Shown piece after piece: positions 7,408 to 53,916 of a stretch of 64,000 nucleotides of DNA (position 1 is its first letter; each line of letters begins with the position of its first letter). This DNA is from Streptococcus sp. 116-D4 (GTDB lineage Bacteria > Bacillota > Bacilli > Lactobacillales > Streptococcaceae). Below the pieces are notes generated by a model, which worked only from the letters and a program-made list of their open reading frames with translations, was not told the DNA's origin and searched no databases. Both the position numbers and the translations under genes were made by a program. The stretch lies in assembly GCF_009731465.1 (NCBI RefSeq), contig NZ_AP021887.1, positions 1,048,001 to 1,112,000 of the forward strand, given 5' to 3'.

Positions 7408-7533
7408 TTTTAACTCCAAAATAAAATGATGATTCTATTTTACCATAAATATAGGGTTTTTGTGAATATTTATAAAATATTTTTCTAAAAAAATCTGACT
7501 ACTTTTATTGTAATCAGATTTTCTTTATCAATT

Positions 7534-10094: not shown

Positions 10095-10324
10095 AAAAAG
10101 CACGGGGCAGTTCTCACTACTGCCCAAAGTGGATGATTAGAGTCGGCTTCTCTAACTCCCTATGTTGTGCTTATTAGGCTTATCGCAAGGGAACAGTTTT
10201 TAGCTCTGCCAAGCCACATAGCGTGCTTACTACTATGTGTCCATGTCACCATGGATTGCCGAGCGGTTTAACGACATTTTGGAAGTCGGGATAACGAGAA
10301 AAGCGGTACTTTTACGTTTTTTCC
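10095..10324 (-). ncRNA. Putative structured RNA of about 230 nt between lysin and nuclease gene
   Basis: It has its own sigma-A promoter and ends at a terminator hairpin GGGCAGT-agtgaga-ACTGCCC (10125-10105) followed by TTTTTATTTT. Internal helices visible in order: CGAC/GUCG; CCAUG-GUGA-CAUGG with a GNRA-type tetraloop; CACAUAG/CUAUGUG; GGCUU/AAGCC; and UUAGAG-AAGCCGA-CUCUAA. No open reading frame fits. The sequence is richer in G+C than its flanks. I do not recognise a known RNA family. It sits directly upstream of the PBECR4-like gene, in the same direction. Confidence 0.65.
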
Positions 10325-23370: not shown

Positions 23371-24684
23371 CTACTCTACTGTAACTGTCATGTACAGTTT
23401 TTCCATGCTGTCCACTGGTTTCACTTTGACATTAACCACTACAGACTCTTTCAACTCACCACGTAGTACCTCAATGTCTTCCACTTTGAAGTCTTCAATA
23501 GCACCACGAGCTTCAAGGTCTTTGAAGTAGCGAATACGGTTCGCTTTGAACGCTTGACGTCCATCTTCGTTGTTGCTCACCTTTCCAAGGAAATACTCAG
23601 AGAAAGCATAACGAGTATCATTCACGATATCGTCCAAGGTGCGCAAGATACGGTTCTTACGGAAGTCTTGGTTCTTCTCAATCGTGAAGCTGACGTGTGA
23701 GTTGATATCTTGTTCAACTACCGCACGGCCACGACGAGCAGTAAAGACAAACTGCCCTTTAAAAAGCGCATCTTCTGTCTCTGTATGGCTCAAGCGACCT
23801 ACAACATCAACAGAGTCTTCGTATTTCTCATAAGTTAATGATTTCTCAACGCCAGCATTTGCACTTGCTGCTGCAACCCATACAGTCGCTTTCGTCTTAT
23901 CAATAACTGTCTTGTCAGACAAGATAACACCGTTTTTAACATTGATTACCGCTTCACTGTCAGCGTCAGAGTCCGCAACAACCAATTGAGCACCAAGTCC
24001 TTCGTCTTCACGCATACGTTTGATGAAGTTGATAGCCGCCTTCTTGATAGAAGCATCTTCTACTGGCAAAGCCATATAGTTAAACTCAACTGTTTCAAGC
24101 GCCTTGAAGTATTCTGAGTAGTCTTGAGTTGATACTGTTCCGTCAGTACCGCCAGTCAATTTAGCACCAGCCACTGCCTGCAGTTCGCCTGTTCCTGAAA
24201 ACTCAACTAGATCATTGTTTTTCAAATCAGCCAAGACTTTTACAGTTTGCGAGTCCATAACAACAGTATCAAGGAATGTGACAACATCAAATGAACTTGG
24301 GTCGTCTACGTTTGTTTTGACCGTTACTGTAATGTCATTCCCACGGACACCGCTATATTTAGCTTGAGCCGTTACGTTGTCTGAAAGGCTTACGTTTGCC
24401 TTTTCTCCCGTATTCAGACGATAAAGCAAGACTTCACTCACACGTTTGAATGCCTCGTTCAGCAACAAAAGCTGTGGGCTTTCTTGCTCATAACCTAGCT
24501 TCTTAAATAGGTCTTCACCACGTCGAATTTTCATCAATTTCTTTGATTGACCGAAACTGAGTGCCAATGGTACTGTTACGACTCCGTCACCGCCAAGGCG
24601 AGTCATTGCGATGTCTTTTGATTTGACGTTGATGTAAGCACCTGGTCTTACTTTATTTTGGCGTTTCCAAATTCCACCTGCCAT
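23371..24684 (-). CDS. Tail sheath protein (XkdK)
   Basis: 437 aa. It begins GGIWKRQNKVRPGAYINVKS and has the sheath domains with DINSHVSFTIEKNQDFRKNRILRTLDDIVNDTRYAFSEYFLGK in the conserved C-terminal part. It shows that the tail is contractile. Start overlaps the stop of the small upstream gene by one base. Confidence 0.95.
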   Translation of the reverse strand: MAGGIWKRQNKVRPGAYINVKSKDIAMTRLGGDGVVTVPLALSFGQSKKLMKIRRGEDLFKKLGYEQESPQLLLLNEAFKRVSEVLLYRLNTGEKANVSLSDNVTAQAKYSGVRGNDITVTVKTNVDDPSSFDVVTFLDTVVMDSQTVKVLADLKNNDLVEFSGTGELQAVAGAKLTGGTDGTVSTQDYSEYFKALETVEFNYMALPVEDASIKKAAINFIKRMREDEGLGAQLVVADSDADSEAVINVKNGVILSDKTVIDKTKATVWVAAASANAGVEKSLTYEKYEDSVDVVGRLSHTETEDALFKGQFVFTARRGRAVVEQDINSHVSFTIEKNQDFRKNRILRTLDDIVNDTRYAFSEYFLGKVSNNEDGRQAFKANRIRYFKDLEARGAIEDFKVEDIEVLRGELKESVVVNVKVKPVDSMEKLYMTVTVE

Positions 24685-26504: not shown

Positions 26505-27497
26505 CTATTTGCCAATTTTGTGTTTCAAAGCGATAATACCGATGTTCTTAGGCTCGTAAACACGTTGCCAGTTCTTGAATTTAGCCAAGTCAGCGTTTGA
26601 TGGAGTGATGTTTCCAGCTTCCACTTCTGCGCCAGTCCATTTCACGCCGTACGGGTGCATCACAAGGGCACGACGAGTGTAAATCATGTCGTTACCTTTA
26701 GCAGCTTCACGAGAAGTCTCAAATGTAGTCAATCCTGATGGATTTCCTGTATTAAGACCGATTGAACCTGTGCGGAAAAGATATGAAGTATAGATATCTC
26801 CTGTTGGTGCAATACCATCATCGATAATGACACGGTAACCAAGGTAGGTTGGAATGTTGATGGTCGCAGTTGTTGGCTGGATGTATTGAATCAAGTTGTC
26901 TTTTTGTAGTTTAGTGTAAACCGCTGAGTGCATAGCAATCGCAGTAACTTGATCAGCAGAATCCCCAAGCAATTGTTTAGCGTCCAGTACCATAGCTGCA
27001 TCGATACCAGTAGATGCTTTGGATTGGTCTGATACGTGAGTTTCTTCAAGAGCACCTTTCTCACCACCTGTTCCAGAAGCAAAGATACCATTCAAGGTAG
27101 CAATCAAGGCTTTTTGGTCTTCACGCAACCAATAAGCGCCAATACGATTCAAGATAGCACGGACTGGGTCAGAACCAGCTACAATACCAGTCAATTCGTT
27201 TGCAGCCCAACCACGTCCACGATAAAGAACGCAGGCAATGTCTGCTCCAGCAGTAATTTTACCAGTTTCTAGGGCTTTGTCGCCATTTCCGAGAACTTCA
27301 GAATCGCCAGTAAGGTCGTTCCAGAAAGGCATGTTGACCAACAGACCACCAGATGTAATATTTTCAGAGACACGTTCGTCTGATACTGCGATACCACTTT
27401 GAACGAAAGCAGATTTAGCAGCTGTGTACTGTTGCATGTAGGCATTGTACTGTTGAGGTGTAATTGTGTCTATAATTTTTGTAAGTTCATTAGCCAT
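26505..27497 (-). CDS. Major capsid protein
   Basis: 330 aa. ITPQQYNAYMQQYTAAKSAFVQSGIAVSDERVSENITSGGLLVNMPFWNDLTG and the motif YLGYRVIIDDGIAPTGD mark the XkdG-like/SPP1 gp13-like capsid family. It follows the scaffold gene with a one-base overlap. Confidence 0.92.
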   Translation of the reverse strand: MANELTKIIDTITPQQYNAYMQQYTAAKSAFVQSGIAVSDERVSENITSGGLLVNMPFWNDLTGDSEVLGNGDKALETGKITAGADIACVLYRGRGWAANELTGIVAGSDPVRAILNRIGAYWLREDQKALIATLNGIFASGTGGEKGALEETHVSDQSKASTGIDAAMVLDAKQLLGDSADQVTAIAMHSAVYTKLQKDNLIQYIQPTTATINIPTYLGYRVIIDDGIAPTGDIYTSYLFRTGSIGLNTGNPSGLTTFETSREAAKGNDMIYTRRALVMHPYGVKWTGAEVEAGNITPSNADLAKFKNWQRVYEPKNIGIIALKHKIGK

Positions 27498-28078
27498 TAG
27501 TTATTTTCTCCTTGTTGTTGTAAAAATTGAGTTAGATTGAAGTCAGGATTGCTCATAGCAGTTTCCCAATTCCCTAAATTAGCACCTTGCCCATCGCCTT
27601 GATTTGGCGTGTATTGGGCTTGTTTCTCCCCGTTAAAGAGATATGGACTCTTAGCACGCTGAGCCTCGATTTGCTCAGTCAAGCCAATCAATTTGCCATC
27701 TTTTACAGAGATTTCGTCTTTGTTTAAGATTTTTCCAAAAATTTCTGCGTCTCGAACGCCAGCTTTTGTCAATTCAGCATCGATTAAGCGAGATTTGTTC
27801 TCATCTGCTAGTTTCGTCTCAAGCGCTTCTGTATCTTGTTTGTACTTAGCCTGTAAGTCCTCTAGCTTTTGCTGAATATCTTCAACATCTGCGCCTTTTT
27901 TCTTTAGATCATTCAAATCTTTGTCACGTTGTGTCAGCTGTCCACGCACGCTCTCCAATTCGCTTTCTTTACTTGCCACATCATCCTTAAATTTTTGGAC
28001 AGAAGCACCATACAAAGCGAAGACTTGAGAAATTTGGTCTTCAGTTAAGCCGATGTTTGCCAGTTGTTCTTTTTTCAT
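27497..28078 (-). CDS. Capsid scaffolding protein (GP20-like minor structural protein)
   Basis: 193 aa. Central coiled coil (about 30-110: EL.SVRGQLTQRDKDLNDLKKK...), a helical region KNRLIDAELTKAGVRDAEIFGKIL-like, and the family position upstream of capsid. It guides procapsid assembly. Confidence 0.88.
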   Translation of the reverse strand: MKKEQLANIGLTEDQISQVFALYGASVQKFKDDVASKESELESVRGQLTQRDKDLNDLKKKGADVEDIQQKLEDLQAKYKQDTEALETKLADENKSRLIDAELTKAGVRDAEIFGKILNKDEISVKDGKLIGLTEQIEAQRAKSPYLFNGEKQAQYTPNQGDGQGANLGNWETAMSNPDFNLTQFLQQQGENN

Positions 28079-28202
28079 TTTGAAAATCCTTTCCTCTACG
28101 CTAGGCTTTTTAGGTGTTCTCCATCACCAGTCGCTCCGCTTTTGTTAGGACTACGGACTTGTCCAATAGTTGAACCTTTTAACGCCATGTTCAGGGCATA
28201 AG

Positions 28203-28228
28203 AAAACCGTACGGGATTCCATACGGTT
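28203..28228 (-). terminator. Hairpin after the antirepressor gene
   Basis: AACCGTA/TACGGTT stem with a 12-nt loop followed by TTCTTATG on the minus strand, about 10 nt past the antirepressor stop. The T run is weak, so it may attenuate rather than end transcription into the scaffold-capsid genes. Confidence 0.5.
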
Positions 28229-28237
28229 AGAGCATAA

Positions 28238-28993
28238 TTAGATAAATAGTAGTCTAAAGGTTTCACGGCCTTTAGGTGTGATGAGAGTCTGTGTGCCAGA
28301 CCATTGTGTTTTTTCGTTGAGTGTTTCCTTGACCTCAAACAAACCATCGTTTTTATTGGCTGTTGGTTGGAGCTTACCTTTCTTATCTCGGTAGATGTAT
28401 TTTTTCTCCATCAAGAAGTCAATAAACTTACGTTCTTTGATTTTTAATTGTTTTGCTGTTTCTCTGAAGCTGGTCAGTAAGTTTCTATCTACTAGTTCAT
28501 CGAAATAGTCTGCTTTCGGTTTCATTATGGTATTTTCAACGGAAAGTACAGCTTTTTCAGCTTCCAAGTGTTTAATGACTGCTTCTTTTTCTTTCAGTTG
28601 ATTACCAGCCATAAGGAGCAAGTCTGCTAAGGCTTGTTTGTTGTGCGTGATATTATAGGCCACTTGGTCGGTCATATAAGCGCCATGCTTACGAATAGAA
28701 GGCAACACTTCGCTAGTGACCCAATCAGCAAATTTCTCTGCTTCTGGTTTGCGAGATTGAAAAACAAGTTTATAGAAATTCGCTTCGTTGATGAAGTTGG
28801 CTTGTTGGACTCCTCCATTTGTAAGGATGTCACTACTAGTTACACCCTTTGGATTGAGTCTTTCTAGTGTTTTTCGTGGATTGCTTAAATCCAGAATTTG
28901 ACAACAATCATTCAAATTAAAGAATGGCTCGCCTTTAACTTCTGCCGTTCTTACTTCTCCGAATTGTTCATTTTTAAAAATTTGTAGTTCCAT
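28238..28993 (-). CDS. Phage antirepressor (Bro-N plus ANT/KilA-C domains)
   Basis: 251 aa. Residues 1-105 are a Bro-N domain (FGEVRTAEVKGEPFFNLNDCC, NFINEANFYKLVFQSRKPEAEKFADWVTSEVLPSIRKHGAYM). Residues 140-250 are a KilA-C/ANT-type DNA-binding domain (LKIKERKFIDFLMEKKYIYRD, TLITPKGRETF). Such proteins inactivate prophage repressors. It lies inside the head operon between scaffold and minor capsid genes, far from the lysogeny module, together with an RHH repressor and an antisense RNA. Confidence 0.9.
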   Translation of the reverse strand: MELQIFKNEQFGEVRTAEVKGEPFFNLNDCCQILDLSNPRKTLERLNPKGVTSSDILTNGGVQQANFINEANFYKLVFQSRKPEAEKFADWVTSEVLPSIRKHGAYMTDQVAYNITHNKQALADLLLMAGNQLKEKEAVIKHLEAEKAVLSVENTIMKPKADYFDELVDRNLLTSFRETAKQLKIKERKFIDFLMEKKYIYRDKKGKLQPTANKNDGLFEVKETLNEKTQWSGTQTLITPKGRETFRLLFI

Positions 28994-29004
28994 TTTTTAT
29001 GCTC

Positions 29005-29280
29005 CTAGTTAAAAATTTTACTTCCTAAGATTTCTGTTTTATCTGTTGAGTTCATCAAAATAAAAGCAATTTCATCTAGTGTTGAATGAAGTAAACCGAA
29101 TTGTTCATTAAAAGTATCAAAAAATTTTTTAGACATCTCTTTAAAAGCTGTCTCATCCTTAAGTTGAACCCAAGCCAAGGTTTCTGTCATATTTGTTGCC
29201 ATTTCAACCGTTCTTCGAATATCTGCAAGCTCGTAGCCTAGATGAGTCAATTGTTCTTCTGTTAATTCAATTTTTGCCAT
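29005..29280 (-). CDS. Small helical protein upstream of the antirepressor
   Basis: 91 aa from ATG at 29280 (GGAG about 10 nt upstream). Helical throughout (MAKIELTEEQLTHLGYELADIRRTVEMATNMTETLAWVQ...). No DNA-binding motif evident. It sits between the antisense RNA and the antirepressor, 11 bp before the latter, so it is probably cotranslated and part of the same switch. Function unknown. Confidence 0.72.
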   Translation of the reverse strand: MAKIELTEEQLTHLGYELADIRRTVEMATNMTETLAWVQLKDETAFKEMSKKFFDTFNEQFGLLHSTLDEIAFILMNSTDKTEILGSKIFN

Positions 29281-29304
29281 AATAAAAACACTCCTTCGTG
29301 TACC

Positions 29305-29333
29305 TTGAAAAGAGCGTCTCAGCATGATATAAT
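29305..29333 (+). promoter_or_regulatory. Promoter of the antisense small RNA
   Basis: TTGAAA (29305-29310), 17 bp, TATAAT (29328-29333) with an extended -10 TG at 29325. It reads rightward against all surrounding structural genes. Confidence 0.8.
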
Positions 29334-29339
29334 ATTTCA

Positions 29340-29408
29340 TGCAGAAACACTTCTGTGGTGATAGCTTAGAACCGACTGTTTGGCGATAGGGGTTCTAGGC
29401 TATTTTTG
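29340..29408 (+). ncRNA. Putative 69-nt antisense small RNA (sar-like)
   Basis: The predicted start is 7 nt after the -10 box. It ends at a terminator with a 13-bp stem ATAGCTTAGAACC/GGTTCTAGGCTAT (one G-U pair) followed by TTTTTG. A small hairpin CAGAA-ACAC-TTCTG lies at its 5' end. It is complementary to the leader upstream of the 91-aa gene and to the last codons and stop of the RHH repressor gene, so it is convergent to the repressor-antirepressor transcript. No reading frame. Position and length match Sar RNA of Salmonella phage P22. Confidence 0.7.
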
Positions 29409-29579
29409 TTTATTTAATTCTTGATATAACTTGTCAATACCCTTTCGGATAACACTAGATTTCGTGCTATCCGTTTTTTTTGCAATTTCTTCAAGTTTAT
29501 CAACCGTTTCGTCGTCAACTCGAACTCGCAACATGGTATTTTTAGGCTTATCTTTGAATTGTTCTTTTCGTGCAAGCAA
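29400..29579 (-). CDS. Ribbon-helix-helix repressor (Arc/CopG type)
   Basis: 59 aa from TTG at 29579, chosen because AGGAGG lies 8 nt upstream. TMLRVRVDDETVDKLEEIAKKTDSTKSSVIRKGIDKLYQEL is a clean RHH fold: a beta strand, then two helices separated by the ST-K-SSVI turn. It has its own strong promoter flanked by a perfect inverted repeat, so it is probably autoregulated and expressed in the lysogen. By analogy with P22 Arc/Mnt it may hold the downstream antirepressor silent. Confidence 0.85.
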   Translation of the reverse strand: MLARKEQFKDKPKNTMLRVRVDDETVDKLEEIAKKTDSTKSSVIRKGIDKLYQELNKQK

Positions 29580-29596
29580 CTTGCTCACCTCCTTTT

Positions 29597-29641
29597 TTGT
29601 TGCTACAATGTCATTATATAACTTCGTAGCAACAAAGTCAA
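29597..29641 (-). promoter_or_regulatory. RHH repressor promoter with 10-bp inverted-repeat operator
   Basis: Minus strand: TTGACT (29641-29636), 17 bp, TATAAT (29618-29613). Arms TTGTTGCTAC (29635-29626 read on the minus strand) and GTAGCAACAA (29606-29597) are perfect inverted repeats on either side of the -10 box, with a 19-bp spacer. Confidence 0.82.
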
Positions 29642-29689
29642 GAGGTTTTTTGAAAAAAATTAAAAATAAGAAAAGCACCCTTACGAGTG

Positions 29690-29887
29690 CTACATTAATT
29701 CTATTGACTTGATTTCAGATTCATTAAATCCAACATATGGATGTTTATCTGTTCTTATTGTAATTTCATCATAGAGTTCATCTTCCGTATCTTGCTTTCC
29801 AGTAAAAGTATTACAATGACCTTCAAGAATTTGACCATCAACAAAAGTAACTCTAATATCTTTTCCTAAATATTGCTCTAAATTCAT
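29690..29887 (-). CDS. Small Sm-like beta-barrel phage protein, possible partner of the toxin-like minor capsid C-terminus
   Basis: 65 aa: YLGKDIRVTFVDGQILEGHCNTF...YDEITIRTDKHPYVGFNESEIKSIELM. The strand-turn pattern and the DGQ.LEG element recall Sm-like folds. The start overlaps the minor capsid stop by one base, so it is translationally coupled. Genes in this place are conserved in related phages. An immunity role for the upstream C-terminal domain is possible but unproven. Confidence 0.65.
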   Translation of the reverse strand: MNLEQYLGKDIRVTFVDGQILEGHCNTFTGKQDTEDELYDEITIRTDKHPYVGFNESEIKSIELM

Positions 29888-31443
29888 TACTGATCTCCTT
29901 TCTTAGGTACAATGTGAGTTCTCTTTTCAGAATGATGGATTTTAATAGATGTCACTTCTGAGCCATCTGAACCATTGATTCCGATTGGGTAGCCTAACTC
30001 TATTATTTCTTTGTTCGTTCTTCTTCCGTGTCTGTCAAGCTCAATACGACCAGTTCCGTGATGTTTATTAAACAATTCCTGAACATCAACTGAATCATAG
30101 ATATAAGATTTCCCTGCTTTATGTGTTGATTCCATATGTGGCGACTGCTTATCAGGGTTTATTTTTTTACCCCATTCTCCAGTTTGGATTTTCTGATAAA
30201 TAAATACTTTATCTTTTAGTCGCTCATATTCTTCACCTCCATTATACTTCAAATCATAGAAGCCTGCAAATGTTTTGGGCATATTTTGAGGGCCTAAAAG
30301 CTGCCTATAAGCTATGAACTGTTCCTTGGTTCTGCGGACTCTGTCCTTTTCCAAACGTTCAGCTTGTAGCTTGTCTTTGATAGCAGTCTGGCCATATTTA
30401 TCAAGTTGCTGCTTTCGCCAATCCTTGAAGGTCTGACTGCTCTCTACCTCATAGCCTTTTCCTGTTTCGATATCTCTTGCATAGCGTTTCCCACCTTTTT
30501 CTAAGGCAGGAACCGTTGTGCATCGACAGTGAGGGTGCATAGTAGGGTAATTTACGCCTTTCTCTGCATCCTTAACAAGAAATACCTTCCCGTCCAACTC
30601 GCCACAAATAGGGCATGTGTGAACCTCTAAGGTCGCTAGATACCTATACTTCTTGATGTTGTCGTCTTGGTATTCATCTAACGTTGCCTGAGCCTGAATA
30701 CCGTTCGTTTCCGTCTGCAAAACAGTCACTGCACGATTACGAGCACGGTCGAACTCAATTGCTAGAAGTTTACTGGACTGGTCTATCGGATAACCTCGGT
30801 TTAAATCATTGGTTACAAGCGATTCTACTCTACTAACCAATTCATCCATATTGCTGCCCCAAACACGCTCAGAGAACCGCTTACCTTTGAAGTTTTCGTT
30901 GATTGCCTTTTGAAGATACTCTTCTTCTAGACGCTCAGGCTTGAAATTCGGTTCTCTTTTGGTCTGTTTATGGTAGTTGTAAGCACGATTTAAGTAGGTT
31001 TCTTGGTAAGTTTGTTTGAGATGTGTTTCTATTCGCTTGTTGATTTTACCAGTCATTTCAGCGATATCCATCTCAACACCAGCAAACAAGGCATCTGCAT
31101 TTGTTTTGACCTTTATTGACCTTGACCACTCTGTTAAATCAGGATGTTTCTTAACAAAACCAGCAATCTCTTGCTTGGTTTTTAATTGGTCAGCCTTAGT
31201 CAGGGATAACAAATAAAATGGTAATGAGTCACTACGATTTTTAGATACCCTCTCGAACGACTCTAAACGACCTGCAATGCGTTTTAGTGTTCTGCGGTAT
31301 AAATTATCGATGTAGTCTATTATCTCGCTAAGGTCGTCAACCTGAGCCAGCTCATATAGTAATCTGTCTTTCTCTTCTCGGCTGAGGTCGTCAAGAGATT
31401 CGATAAAGGCTATTTTCTCTTCTTTATTCAGTTTCCGACTCAT
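29887..31443 (-). CDS. Minor capsid / head morphogenesis protein fused to a polymorphic-toxin type 50-like domain
   Basis: 518 aa. Residues about 150-310 are the phage head morphogenesis (SPP1 gp7) domain with HTCPICGELDGKVF and HPHCRCTTVPAL. The last 95 residues (SPHMESTHKAGKSYI..., VQELFNKHHGTGRIEL, IKIHHSEKRTHIVPKKGD) resemble the polymorphic toxin type 50 (Ntox50-like) domain, a predicted RNase fold. The head domain places the protein at the portal; the toxin-like domain may enter the cell with the DNA or be a virion-borne effector. Overlaps the portal gene by 20 bp. Confidence 0.85.
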   Translation of the reverse strand: MSRKLNKEEKIAFIESLDDLSREEKDRLLYELAQVDDLSEIIDYIDNLYRRTLKRIAGRLESFERVSKNRSDSLPFYLLSLTKADQLKTKQEIAGFVKKHPDLTEWSRSIKVKTNADALFAGVEMDIAEMTGKINKRIETHLKQTYQETYLNRAYNYHKQTKREPNFKPERLEEEYLQKAINENFKGKRFSERVWGSNMDELVSRVESLVTNDLNRGYPIDQSSKLLAIEFDRARNRAVTVLQTETNGIQAQATLDEYQDDNIKKYRYLATLEVHTCPICGELDGKVFLVKDAEKGVNYPTMHPHCRCTTVPALEKGGKRYARDIETGKGYEVESSQTFKDWRKQQLDKYGQTAIKDKLQAERLEKDRVRRTKEQFIAYRQLLGPQNMPKTFAGFYDLKYNGGEEYERLKDKVFIYQKIQTGEWGKKINPDKQSPHMESTHKAGKSYIYDSVDVQELFNKHHGTGRIELDRHGRRTNKEIIELGYPIGINGSDGSEVTSIKIHHSEKRTHIVPKKGDQ

Positions 31444-34966: not shown

Positions 34967-35045
34967 TTGGAACGACAGGACTCGAACCTGCCTACGTTTC
35001 AGACCCTTTATAGTCATATCGCTCCACCAACTGAGCTACGTTCCA
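34967..35045 (-). tRNA. Phage tRNA or tRNA-like gene with abnormal anticodon arm
   Basis: Acceptor TGGAACG/CGTTCCA (7 bp), D arm GCTC..AGTTGGTG..GAGC and T arm GCAGG-TTCGAGT-CCTGT are all canonical, total 79 nt. The 28 nt between D and T arms (22 expected) do not fold into a normal 5-bp anticodon stem with U33. Candidates GACT/GGTC with a 6-nt loop, or a GAA triplet in CUGAAAC, both need mismatches. No CCA is encoded. The identity is therefore not called; it may be a non-decoding mimic. Confidence 0.65.
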
Positions 35046-47431: not shown

Positions 47432-47842
47432 TTACCCATTCATGGTCTTGATTTCCATCTTGGTATTATGTGATGGTTCCCATGACTTCCAGTAATCAAA
47501 AGCCCTCTCTTCGTCTTTTTTCTTCAGCAGGTCATACCGTGGAATCCTAAAGTATTCTTTAAAGTCTTTAGCAGCCTGACGAAAGACTTTGCTGGCAAAA
47601 GAGCGGTCTTTATAAGCTTGACTATCCTTACCGCCAAGAGCCTTTATGACTTTCACTTTTCTTAAATTTTCAAGTTCTAAACAAATTGATGGATTGACAG
47701 GTTGCTCATTTTTTAGATAATCAACATCCCCTGCTAAAACTTCCTGATTTTGCTTTAATTCTTTTTGAGTTTGTAGAACTTGAATCAAGATATCTTCTTG
47801 AGTCAGTTCGTTTGGTTGACTTTTAACTACTTCATGCGTCAT
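47432..47842 (-). CDS. ORF6C-domain phage protein
   Basis: 136 aa. The C-terminal half (LRKVKVIKALGGKDSQAYKDRSFASKVFRQAAKDFKEYFRIPRYDLLKKKDEERAFDYWKSW) is a clear ORF6C domain, usually found with antirepressor-type proteins. Probably a regulator or DNA-binding partner. Overlaps the DUF3102 gene by 4 bp. Confidence 0.82.
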   Translation of the reverse strand: MTHEVVKSQPNELTQEDILIQVLQTQKELKQNQEVLAGDVDYLKNEQPVNPSICLELENLRKVKVIKALGGKDSQAYKDRSFASKVFRQAAKDFKEYFRIPRYDLLKKKDEERAFDYWKSWEPSHNTKMEIKTMNG

Positions 47843-49621: not shown

Positions 49622-49849
49622 CTAAGATGGTAATTTCAGAAAATCCGAAACGTTGTCTAAAAAAATATCGTCTACTGAAACATCTAGCGCACTAGCTAGT
49701 TTTTTTATATTTTCATAACTAGCTCTACGCAATTTTTTGACATCATTTTCATAACTCATTATAGTACGCGATGTTATGCCAGTTTCCTTCGCTAATTCTT
49801 CTTGAGTCATCCCACGAAAGCGTCGCAAAGTTTTTAATGTGTTTGCCAT
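49622..49849 (-). CDS. cro: Cro-like repressor
   Basis: 75 aa. LKTLRRFRGMTQEELAKETGITSRTIMSYENDVKKLRRASYENIKKLASALDVSVDDIF is an XRE HTH. First gene of the leftward early operon, divergent from cI, with an operator palindrome inside its promoter. Confidence 0.88.
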   Translation of the reverse strand: MANTLKTLRRFRGMTQEELAKETGITSRTIMSYENDVKKLRRASYENIKKLASALDVSVDDIFLDNVSDFLKLPS

Positions 49850-49877
49850 CGATTGCTCCTTTCTTGATTATGTCTTA

Positions 49878-49906
49878 ATTATACACTTCGGTTTTTCCGA
49901 AGTCAA
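49878..49906 (-). promoter_or_regulatory. Early leftward promoter with operator
   Basis: TTGACT (49906-49901), 17 bp, TATAAT (49883-49878). The palindrome ACTTCGG-AAAAA-CCGAAGT (49885-49903) fills the space between the boxes. Related TTCG/CGAA elements occur at 49926-49930 and 49957-49962. Confidence 0.85.
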
Positions 49907-49948
49907 GCATTTTACTTCATTTTTTTCGAAATTTTTTTCTCTTTTTGT

Positions 49949-49977
49949 TTGTAACGTTTCGGATAAAGTGATATTAT
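49949..49977 (+). promoter_or_regulatory. Lysogeny (cI) promoter
   Basis: TTGTAA (49949-49954), 17 bp, TATTAT (49972-49977); the spacer begins CGTTTCGG, a half-site like that in the early promoter. Confidence 0.7.
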
Positions 49978-50012
49978 ATAGTAAAAGAAAAATACGAAAG
50001 GTATTTCACGTC

Positions 50013-50384
50013 ATGGAGAACCAAAACAATTATTTTGCTTCTAATCTTAAATTTCTACGTCAAAAATACCAAATGGAACAAATTGACTTAGCTAATAAAT
50101 TAGGAAGAAAAAGTTCCTCTTCAGTAAGCGAATGGGAGAGAGGGAAGTATACTCCCAAAGCGGGCGTTTTAAATGATATTTCTAGAATATTCAATGTTTC
50201 GTTATCGGAACTGATGACCAAAGACTTATCTGACACTTCCTCTCCACGGACAGATAACCCAGCAGATGATATAGATAAAATCATAGACCATGCTATGTTC
50301 TTCGATGGAAAACCTCTAACAGATGATGATCGTCGAGCTCTCCGTGGAATAATCTCAGGGTATATGAATAGCAAAGGAGATTGA
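50013..50384 (+). CDS. cI: CI-like prophage repressor, short form
   Basis: 123 aa from ATG at 50013 (AAAGG about 10 nt upstream). N-terminal XRE HTH (FASNLKFLRQKYQMEQIDLANKLGRKSSSSVSEWERGKYTPKAGVL). The C-terminal half (DKIIDHAMFFDGKPLTDDDRRALRGIISGYM) is the tail seen in ImmR-like repressors. There is no S24 peptidase domain, so RecA-driven self-cleavage is unlikely. An ImmA-like protease is encoded two genes on. Confidence 0.88.
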   Translation: MENQNNYFASNLKFLRQKYQMEQIDLANKLGRKSSSSVSEWERGKYTPKAGVLNDISRIFNVSLSELMTKDLSDTSSPRTDNPADDIDKIIDHAMFFDGKPLTDDDRRALRGIISGYMNSKGD

Positions 50385-52654: not shown

Positions 52655-52703
52655 AAAAATCCCCACGCTCTCAAACTTTGGCGAGTCTGAGCGTGAGGAT
52701 ATC
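52655..52703 (-). terminator. Leftward terminator before the lipoprotein 3' end
   Basis: CTCACGCTCAGACTCG.../TTTGAGAGCGTGGGG stem followed by ATTTTTAAAT on the minus strand; sequence related to the hairpin at 52086-52130, so the lipoprotein gene is bracketed by two similar elements. Confidence 0.45.
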
Positions 52704-52773
52704 CTGAATAGTAAAAGGCATTAAAAAGCCCTCTTTACTATACCTATTTTATCAAGAAATGAGGTGAAAATCA

Positions 52774-53916
52774 ATGTGGATGGAAGAACTTCCTAACGGA
52801 AAATACAAATTTTTTGAGCGATACAAAGATCCTTATACCGAGAAATGGAAAAGGGTGTCTGTAACCCTTGACTCTGGATCAAGCAGGGCAAAAAAAGAAG
52901 CTCAGAAGCTTCTGGACGAGCGATTGGAAGAAACACTAAAGAAGCTACAAACGACTGATATCGTCTATGAGCACGTTTTAAATGAGTGGTGGGCGTTTTA
53001 TCAAAAGGAACTCAAGGGGAGCTCTATCAGCTCTCTTACCAGCAACGTGAATGATTTTAAAGAGACTTTTGATTTATCTGTGAAAGTGAGCAACATCGAT
53101 ACAAAATACATTCAGCGTTTTCTAAACAACCTTGACCTATCCCGTTCAAAAATGGAACGATATAAGTTAATCTTAAACCTGTCTCTTGATTACGCAGTCA
53201 ATCTTGAGTACATTGAAGACAATCCTGCAAGACGTGCGAAACTTCCCAAACTCGTAAAGACTATCGAAGATTTAGAAAAGACAGAAAAGAAATTCCTTGA
53301 AGAAGATGAGTTAAAAAGATTGCTTTCTGAGCTATATAGAACAGATAAAACGTATAGACTAGGATTGCTTGCTGAATTTATGGCTTACAATGGTTGTCGT
53401 ATAGGTGAAGCTATAGCGCTTAGAGAAGAGAACGTTGATTTTGATAGCAAGACTGTCAAAATACATGGAACGCTAGATAAGACTGTAGGCTATTCTAAAG
53501 GATTAAAAACAACAACAAAAACAGCTGCAAGCTTCAGGACAGTTTCCTTGTCAAAGAGAGAACTTGAAATATTAAAAGAATTCATCTCAATAAATGAACT
53601 TTCGAAAAATACAAGAGAAACCTTTAATGATCTCGGATTTATTTTTGTTACCAAGAACGGAATACCTATCCAAAATAACTCGTTTAATTTAGCGATTCAA
53701 AAAGCAAACAACCGACTTAAAAACCCCATTGATAAGCATCTGACTTCTCATATCTTTAGACATACCCTAGTAAGCCGACTATCAGAAAACAACGTGCCTC
53801 TAAAAGCAATTATGGCTAGAGTAGGGCATTCTGACTCTCGTACGACAAATAAAATCTATACACACGTTACAAAGAAGATGGATGACAATATCCTCGACCT
53901 ACTAGATAATTTATAG
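52774..53916 (+). CDS. int: Tyrosine-type site-specific integrase
   Basis: 380 aa. N-terminal arm-binding domain (GKYKFFERYKDPYTEKWKRVSVTL), SAM-like core-binding domain, and a catalytic domain with Arg in NGCRIGEA, HIFRHT, the GHSD box and the tyrosine in TNKIYTHVTKKM. It lies 66 bp from the att core, as usual. Inserts and, with an excisionase, removes the prophage at hup. Confidence 0.96.
   Translation: MWMEELPNGKYKFFERYKDPYTEKWKRVSVTLDSGSSRAKKEAQKLLDERLEETLKKLQTTDIVYEHVLNEWWAFYQKELKGSSISSLTSNVNDFKETFDLSVKVSNIDTKYIQRFLNNLDLSRSKMERYKLILNLSLDYAVNLEYIEDNPARRAKLPKLVKTIEDLEKTEKKFLEEDELKRLLSELYRTDKTYRLGLLAEFMAYNGCRIGEAIALREENVDFDSKTVKIHGTLDKTVGYSKGLKTTTKTAASFRTVSLSKRELEILKEFISINELSKNTRETFNDLGFIFVTKNGIPIQNNSFNLAIQKANNRLKNPIDKHLTSHIFRHTLVSRLSENNVPLKAIMARVGHSDSRTTNKIYTHVTKKMDDNILDLLDNL

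Follow-up and report, generated by a model that had tools for sequence, protein, structure and literature searches.

A candidate mobile phage cassette of Streptococcus predicted to silence its antirepressor by an RHH repressor and an antisense RNA acting on a leader switch

Introduction

To our knowledge, it is mostly unknown how antirepressors are kept silent in the lysogens of Gram-positive bacteria, and this question is raised by a prophage locus in a 64,000-nucleotide (nt) stretch of Streptococcus sp. 116-D4 (NZ_AP021887.1, positions 1,048,001 to 1,112,000), which is termed the window here and to which all coordinates refer. On its reverse strand, a ribbon-helix-helix (RHH) repressor gene, a gene of 91 amino acids (aa) and a Bro-N/ANT antirepressor gene follow one another, and a short antisense RNA (asRNA) is predicted to be transcribed convergently against the leader that follows the RHH gene (Table 1). 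An initial annotation of the DNA had likened this cassette to the immI switch of phage P22, and all of its parts were found at the positions claimed when the coordinates were rechecked. As reported below, the cassette is almost certainly a real conserved unit, and judging from its sequence it is probably a mobile phage cassette that silences an antirepressor at two levels. As far as sequence can tell, its logic combines a CopG/Arc-like autorepressor with countertranscript attenuation of the pT181 type.

Conservation of the unit

The unit was sought with a finder that demands a convergent promoter, a hairpin with a T-run 45-105 nt past the -10 element of that promoter, a downstream gene and an upstream gene of 36-95 aa ending near the hairpin, and that demands no RHH or other protein similarity. 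Applied to 279 sources (1.82 Mb in all), it recovered 117 distinct leaders, and not one when the sequences were reversed. An RHH-profile match lies upstream in 106 of the 117; the 11 leaders lacking one were left out, of which L140/L150 and L151 look like divergent RHH genes by eye. When loci were picked by the RHH protein alone, the unit turned up in 65 of 80 viral contigs, these 80 being the best of 111 confirmed, and in 14 of 18 genome contigs, those with the unit including contigs titled Ruminococcus, Roseburia and Eubacterium; among the picked loci without it, at least two (L204 and L264) end no more than 135 nt from the RHH gene. Eleven relatives collected by distant blastn (L001-L011) all carry an RHH-type gene, a paired leader hairpin, a small gene and an antirepressor, and ten of them pass the finder, L007 failing with a weaker -35 element. 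The RHH gene, the asRNA unit and the antirepressor, whose joint absence from related prophages had been named beforehand as the result that would count against the cassette, are therefore found together.

Seven of 11 further named records also pass, namely Streptococcus agalactiae phage Javan52, Streptococcus mitis phage MissE1, Streptococcus suis phage Javan549, a human faecal phage record, the Streptococcus pneumoniae satellite Javan751, Fusobacterium phage Funu2 (RHH then Rha) and Clostridioides difficile phage phiCDIF1296T (RHH then Bro-N/ANT). At the scale of whole genomes, the exact promoter pattern was too stringent to be useful, with 2 of 197 genomes matching in the nearest genus covered and 0 of 299 in its class, and one RHH protein used as query matched 2 of 72,556 plasmid records, both of C. 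difficile.

The antisense RNA and the leader switch

A convergent 69-nt RNA unit with the promoter TTGAAA-17-TATAAT and a 13-bp terminator stem over the RHH stop had been proposed, and it is borne out: the promoter agrees with the consensus at 11 of 12 positions, the stem pairs 29361-29373 with 29391-29403 before T5, and the predicted RNA folds with a z score of -5.9, no shuffle out of 200 being equally good. The stem sequence varies among the relatives yet stays paired. No Rfam match was obtained at the asRNA in the window or in the 12 relatives searched. The UUGGCG loop, striking in the streptococcal set, was rejected as a general feature, being found in 4 of 52 cluster representatives (TTGG in 24 and a YTNR loop in 23 of the 52).

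The P22-like expectation that this RNA reaches the ribosome site of the downstream gene was not upheld. Its 5' end lies 59 nt upstream of the start codon of the 91-aa gene, whose Shine-Dalgarno sequence (29290-29296) stays uncovered; the corresponding distance is 48-98 nt in all 52 representatives, and 29-98 nt over all 106 cassettes, some of whose start codons are doubtful. What the asRNA covers instead is the first of three leader segments (Table 1), the second of which, located between the -10 element of the asRNA and the ribosome site, is predicted to pair either with the first or with the Shine-Dalgarno sequence.

This predicted exchange was evaluated in a swap test on the 52 representatives, in which pairing partners were exchanged between leaders of different clusters; 6 of the 58 clusters, with a short segment 2, were left out, and a first-pass test that held near-identical sequences (7 of 46 leaders dropped) was superseded by it. 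Segments 1 and 2 of the same leader pair with a mean energy of -19.6 against -8.6 for swapped partners, and in 44 of 52 leaders the own pairing is better than 95% or more of the swaps. For segments 2 and 3 the means are -12.4 and -7.7, the own pairing reaches the same mark in 25 of 52, and comparison with shuffles gives a z below -2 in 35 of 52. The control pair of segments 1 and 3 gave no signal (4 of 52 by swaps, z below -2 in 2 of 52). In folding calculations, the unpaired probability of the ribosome site in the window drops from 0.89 when the leader is free to 0.01 when segment 1 is covered, and the mean openness over the 52 leaders falls from 0.37 to 0.18 when the asRNA-covered stretch is unavailable. 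With segment 2 shuffled, the openness of the covered leaders averages 0.47 compared with 0.18 for the real ones, which are lower in 47 of 52.

These results point to a pre-emptor segment and an alternative hairpin over the ribosome site, strongly for the pairing of segments 1 and 2 and moderately for that of segments 2 and 3. A run of at least four T close before the start codon occurs in 21 of the 52 leaders, so in some of them the masking of translation may be reinforced by termination of transcription.

The RHH repressor and its operator

The start of the 59-aa RHH gene follows the annotation of Javan336, and a longer GTG frame with the same stop at 29400, reaching 29678, is possible. Upstream of it, a perfect promoter and a perfect 10-bp inverted repeat had been described; the promoter TTGACT-17-TATAAT stands with 11 of 12 consensus matches and the repeat is indeed perfect, while its arms (TTTGTTGCTAC and GTAGCAACAAA), which flank the -10 element, are 11 bp long. 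Promoter-like sites in the window stretch number 8 against 7.7 +/- 2.9 in shuffles, not above chance, and terminator-like sites 5 against 2.4 +/- 1.9, a slight excess; both cassette promoters are nevertheless credible because they are conserved in relatives.

The predicted RHH operators of the relatives flank the -10 element as inverted or direct half-sites, and their sequence follows that of the protein. Residues of the RHH beta-strand were taken from profile columns 16, 18 and 20, which, from Arc and CopG, we take to face the DNA, and 6 of the 106 cassettes, having no TTGA promoter, were left out. Among RHH pairs less than 60% identical, those with the same three residues share a mean operator word of 7.87 against 5.66, a difference reached in 0 of 1000 permutations; words of at least 7 are shared by 71 of 119 pairs with the same residues and by 895 of 4627 other pairs. 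Thus N-R-R goes with GGTAACAC, E-R-R with GTGTCACC and S-R-R with GTATCCAC, while M-R-R accompanies GTTGCTAC both in the window and in the gut contig L157. Because the beta-strand residues track the operator words, binding of the RHH protein to the inverted repeat of the window is likely, and autorepression at the predicted operator is very probable.

Table 1. Predicted features of the cassette and its borders in the window (strand + is the forward strand).
Feature	Position	Strand	Remarks
Terminator-like hairpin 3' of antirepressor	28205..28228	-	probably phage backbone, not cassette
Antirepressor, Bro-N + ANT (KilAC)	28238..28993	-	Bro-N E 1.4e-20, ANT E 2.2e-23; phrog_130 E 2.7e-75
Small variable gene, 91 aa	29005..29280	-	predicted two-helix hairpin; AlphaFold2 mean pLDDT 79.5
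Leader segment 3	29284..29296	-	Shine-Dalgarno of small gene + U-run
asRNA promoter TTGAAA-17-TATAAT, extended -10	29305..29333	+	11/12 consensus matches; position conserved in relatives
Leader segment 2	29307..29327	-	predicted to pair with segment 1 or with Shine-Dalgarno
Leader segment 1 (pre-emptor)	29337..29353	-	asRNA-covered except last 3 nt
Predicted asRNA, ~69 nt	29340..29408	+	terminator stem 29361-29403 then T5; loop UUGGCG
RHH autorepressor gene, 59 aa, TTG start	29400..29579	-	RHH_1 E 7.5e-6; start as annotated in Javan336
Operator half-site, arm TTTGTTGCTAC	29596..29606	.	predicted; half-sites track RHH beta-strand residues
Cassette promoter TTGACT-17-TATAAT	29613..29641	-	11/12 consensus matches; block AAAACCTCTTGACTTT recurs in relatives
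Operator half-site, arm GTAGCAACAAA	29626..29636	.	predicted; half-sites track RHH beta-strand residues
Terminator-like hairpin 5' of cassette promoter	29674..29691	-	in the window; not general

The small gene, the antirepressor and other outputs

The 91-aa protein has no PHROG match at E 0.1 and no Pfam match; a second small protein that was modelled is likewise a two-helix hairpin, with a predicted local distance difference test score (pLDDT) of 73.0, and the small genes as a whole fall into many clusters without detectable mutual similarity. The antirepressor of the window has tblastn matches in 1,215 of 50,697 phage records. An antirepressor-cluster gene is among the first three genes in 79 of the 106 cassettes, standing first in 27, second in 48 and third in 4. 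From the main antirepressor cluster, 14 members were randomly drawn and 11 scanned, and a Bro-N, AntA or Rha domain is present in all 11; the second cluster includes L203, an ORF6N protein. With starts sought from -25 to +150 nt relative to the stop of the first gene, the second-position antirepressor begins no more than 17 nt from that stop in 46 of 48 cassettes, a 4-nt overlap being commonest (18), and translational coupling is therefore likely.

Other gene contents were also observed. In Javan52 (L269, 2501-5158) the RHH-asRNA unit precedes a 146-aa gene and replication genes of the DnaC type, so the module may also drive other outputs. In the pneumococcal satellite phage Javan751 (L274, 2489-3221) a 135-aa gene without Pfam match follows, and no antirepressor-cluster gene was found in the first three genes. 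The gut contig L157 bears two paralogous cassettes on its reverse strand, in one of which a gene with an HExxH ImmA-like motif, recognised by eye, precedes a Bro-N-like gene.

Genomic sites and mosaicism

The window belongs to a streptococcal contractile-tailed phage (tail sheath gene 23371-24684, PHROG E 9.6e-137), in which the cassette sits between a minor head gene (29887-31443) with a 65-aa gene on one side and the scaffold gene (27497-28078) on the other. Its placement inside the head operon thus holds for the window and not as a rule, and other sites are also used: Javan336 and MismyG share the site of the window, Javan362 and Javan367 carry the cassette between terminase and portal genes, Javan326 and Javan166 before a scaffold gene, Javan197, Javan190 and Javan119 between hyaluronidase-type genes, and Javan570 and phiJH1301-1 in the early region after the recT gene. 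Across 23 streptococcal cassettes, 10 RHH, 14 hairpin, 3 leader, 7 small-gene and 9 antirepressor N-terminal types were distinguished, and all 23 combinations are distinct. The cassette therefore appears to be mobile, with several genomic positions and shuffled parts, and such free reassortment of specificity parts would be as expected for immunity modules under diversifying selection.

The hairpin after the antirepressor, initially annotated as part of the cassette, was rejected as such and looks like phage backbone: the 35-nt block that holds it (28203-28237) is identical in at least 20 pneumococcal phages that otherwise have no match to the query by blastn at that sensitivity. Some of these phages annotate 'scaffold 2' there, and the site would seem to be a hotspot for insertion. 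In EJ-1, the site of the window is occupied by different small genes and a terminator that is annotated as such. As a general feature, a terminator 5' of the cassette was likewise discarded (20 of 52 representatives against 25 of 52 reversed controls).

Proposed mechanism and alternative explanations

At the first level, the RHH protein would bind the half-sites on either side of the -10 element and shut its own promoter, hence the whole operon. At the second, the asRNA would cover leader segment 1, upstream of the small gene. An uncovered segment 1 would pair with segment 2 and leave the ribosome site open, whereas a covered one would release segment 2 to pair with the ribosome site, turning translation off and, in leaders with a U-run after it, perhaps also terminating transcription; these steps are proposed because the segments co-vary and folding agrees. 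Translation of the antirepressor would be coupled to that of the small gene, as the gaps suggest. In the lysogen, both brakes would be on and leaky or read-through mRNA would be neutralised. Upon entry into a cell without the cognate RHH protein and asRNA, a burst of antirepressor could precede the accumulation of the brakes and would attack a resident CI-type repressor, making the cassette an anti-immunity module; the chances that its role is anti-immunity or the tuning of induction are about even.

Several observations weigh against this reading. Segment 2 outdoes at least 95% of swaps at the ribosome site in just 25 of 52 leaders, and on covering, a loss of openness exceeding 0.1 at that site is seen in only 26 leaders and a gain of that size in 2, in part because many leaders, whose mean openness when free is 0.37, look closed already in the fold of the entire leader. 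A terminator hairpin is among the demands of the finder, and its presence in the matches is therefore built in; the 279 sources had been enriched by earlier searches (antirepressor, small genes, promoter block, RHH), so the counts are no estimate of prevalence, and the sequences are related, so they are not counts of independent events. Four of the 11 further named records (L268-L278) fail the finder, namely L268, L272, L276 and L277. Finally, 27 of the 106 cassettes, 2 of them in stretches shorter than 1 kb, have no antirepressor-cluster gene in their first three genes, and the output may therefore not always be an antirepressor.

Were the asRNA a brake of the P22 Sar type, it would block the ribosome site of its target directly or through RNase III cleavage with no leader switch, a view in keeping with the gene order, RNA length and terminator position shared with P22 and with an asRNA whose position makes it complementary to the leader over its full length. 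This is unlikely, since the 48-98 nt between asRNA and start codon leave the ribosome site uncovered in 52 of 52 representatives, a geometry on which direct occlusion was rejected, and since segments 1 and 2 as well as 2 and 3 co-vary; duplex cleavage of the RNase III type could nevertheless add to the effect. That the segments form instead a DNA operator of some regulator around the asRNA promoter, their RNA pairing being incidental, would account for the inverted-repeat arms flanking the -10 element of that promoter. It is made highly improbable by pairs that include G-U (in the window, AGTGTTTC with GAGACGCT), which a DNA operator would not favour, and by the finding that segment 2 also fits the ribosome site in its own leader better than swapped ones, a match that would be superfluous in an operator.

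Least probable of all appears a type I toxin-antitoxin pair, with the small gene as a toxin restrained by the asRNA and the antirepressor as a passenger. The asRNA does lie in cis, and of the 79 cassettes with an antirepressor, 52 have another gene ahead of it (it is the second gene in 48 and the third in 4), but the antirepressor comes directly first in 27, the small genes form many dissimilar clusters of which the two modelled are two-helix hairpins, and the commonest partner of the unit is an antirepressor and no single small gene. Attenuation through the leader switch is judged the probable main mechanism of the asRNA.

Comparison with known systems

The likeness to P22 immI stands as layout and not beyond it. 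In both, an RHH autorepressor comes first, a convergent asRNA of about 70 nt (sar is 70 nt, its terminator overlapping the arc stop) ends over the RHH stop, and an antirepressor lies downstream; immI also sits among structural genes, as does the cassette of the window (PMC11016777). Homology, protein families, mechanism and a counterpart of Mnt are what the comparison lacks. P22 has Arc (PF03869) and an Ant of P22_AR_N/P22_AR_C, as opposed to RHH_1 and Bro-N/ANT here, and BLASTP of Ant against the antirepressor of the window gives E 0.45. In P22, sar lies directly against the start codon of ant, over the ribosome site of that gene, with no room for attenuator segments, whereas here the leader carries an extra switch and the asRNA stops short of the ribosome site. 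No Mnt-like gene was recognised next to the cassette promoter, where a co-oriented 65-aa gene and two forward-strand frames have no Pfam match, a small RHH protein being able to escape Pfam. The resemblance would thus be convergent or very ancient and no sign of membership. Deletion of immI lowers lysogenisation in P22 (PMC11016777), a hint at what removal of the cassette might do here.

The closest mechanisms appear to be those of plasmids, the combination of RHH protein and asRNA resembling pMV158 and the attenuation pT181 and pIP501. In pT181, RNAI lets a terminator-like hairpin that holds the repC ribosome site form, the 5' arm of which is otherwise taken by a pre-emptor (PMC5703833); that system controls plasmid replication, no RHH repressor is mentioned for it in the portion of that source consulted, and a T-run of at least four near the start codon is present in only 21 of 52 leaders here. 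The copG-rnaII-repB operon of pMV158 also begins with an RHH repressor and has a short asRNA between this gene and the target, but its RNAII blocks translation of a replication gene without attenuator or U-turn loop (PMC4485353, PMC5703833). When the PDB was searched with RHH profile A2, CopG was a weak match (E 0.018) that ranked behind three designed helical proteins, proteins of the ORF56 type and one ribosomal protein. CopR and RNAIII of pIP501 provide the same two-tier control by a small repressor and asRNA attenuation; CopR, however, is a helix-turn-helix protein that does not autoregulate and is transcribed separately from the target gene (PMC5703833).

Other features of the window

A GP20-b cis-regulatory RNA (28102-28164, -; 52.8 bits, gathering 36.2), also present in L001, lies immediately 5' of the scaffold gene. 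An ORF6C-domain gene in the early region (47432-47842, -) is a second antirepressor-type gene of the same phage. A putative repressor of the HTH type is encoded at 49839-50384. The Rfam small RNA Spy779816 (52655-52738, -; 73 bits, gathering 67) is located before the integrase gene (52774-53916, +) and antisense to its leader; the first-pass finder also flagged a hairpin with a promoter-like site at this position, and the integrase may also be under antisense control. Bacilli-1 RNA (10192-10256), SpF36 sRNA (7477-7526) and a tRNA (34967-35045), all on the reverse strand, lie within or beside the prophage.

Significance

Bro antirepressors with Xre repressors have been treated as a two-gene module (PMC2701414). 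No description of an RHH-asRNA-antirepressor unit in Gram-positive phages was met among the matches listed from the open-licence full-text literature, in agreement with the initial annotation, which knew of none for Firmicute phages, and a prior account elsewhere is possible.

The proposed cassette supplies a specific two-level silencing mechanism for a large set of antirepressors, which are common in phages, ties phage immunity to plasmid copy control, and offers a natural collection of RHH proteins and of the operators that go with them, from which a recognition code might be drawn, together with antisense RNA switches. It is conceivable, though we put it slightly below an even chance, that it represents a second modular immunity layer of temperate phages across Firmicutes and Fusobacteria, in which plasmid copy-control logic is re-used to hold a ready-to-fire antirepressor and three swappable specificities (RHH-operator, asRNA-leader and antirepressor domain) decide which incoming phage induces or overcomes which lysogen. 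If so, sequence alone would reveal these cross-immunity groups by way of the RHH recognition code. Should the two-level mechanism be right, it would predict which prophages cross-induce, and it might account for the induction of streptococcal and gut clostridial prophages by heteroimmune phages.

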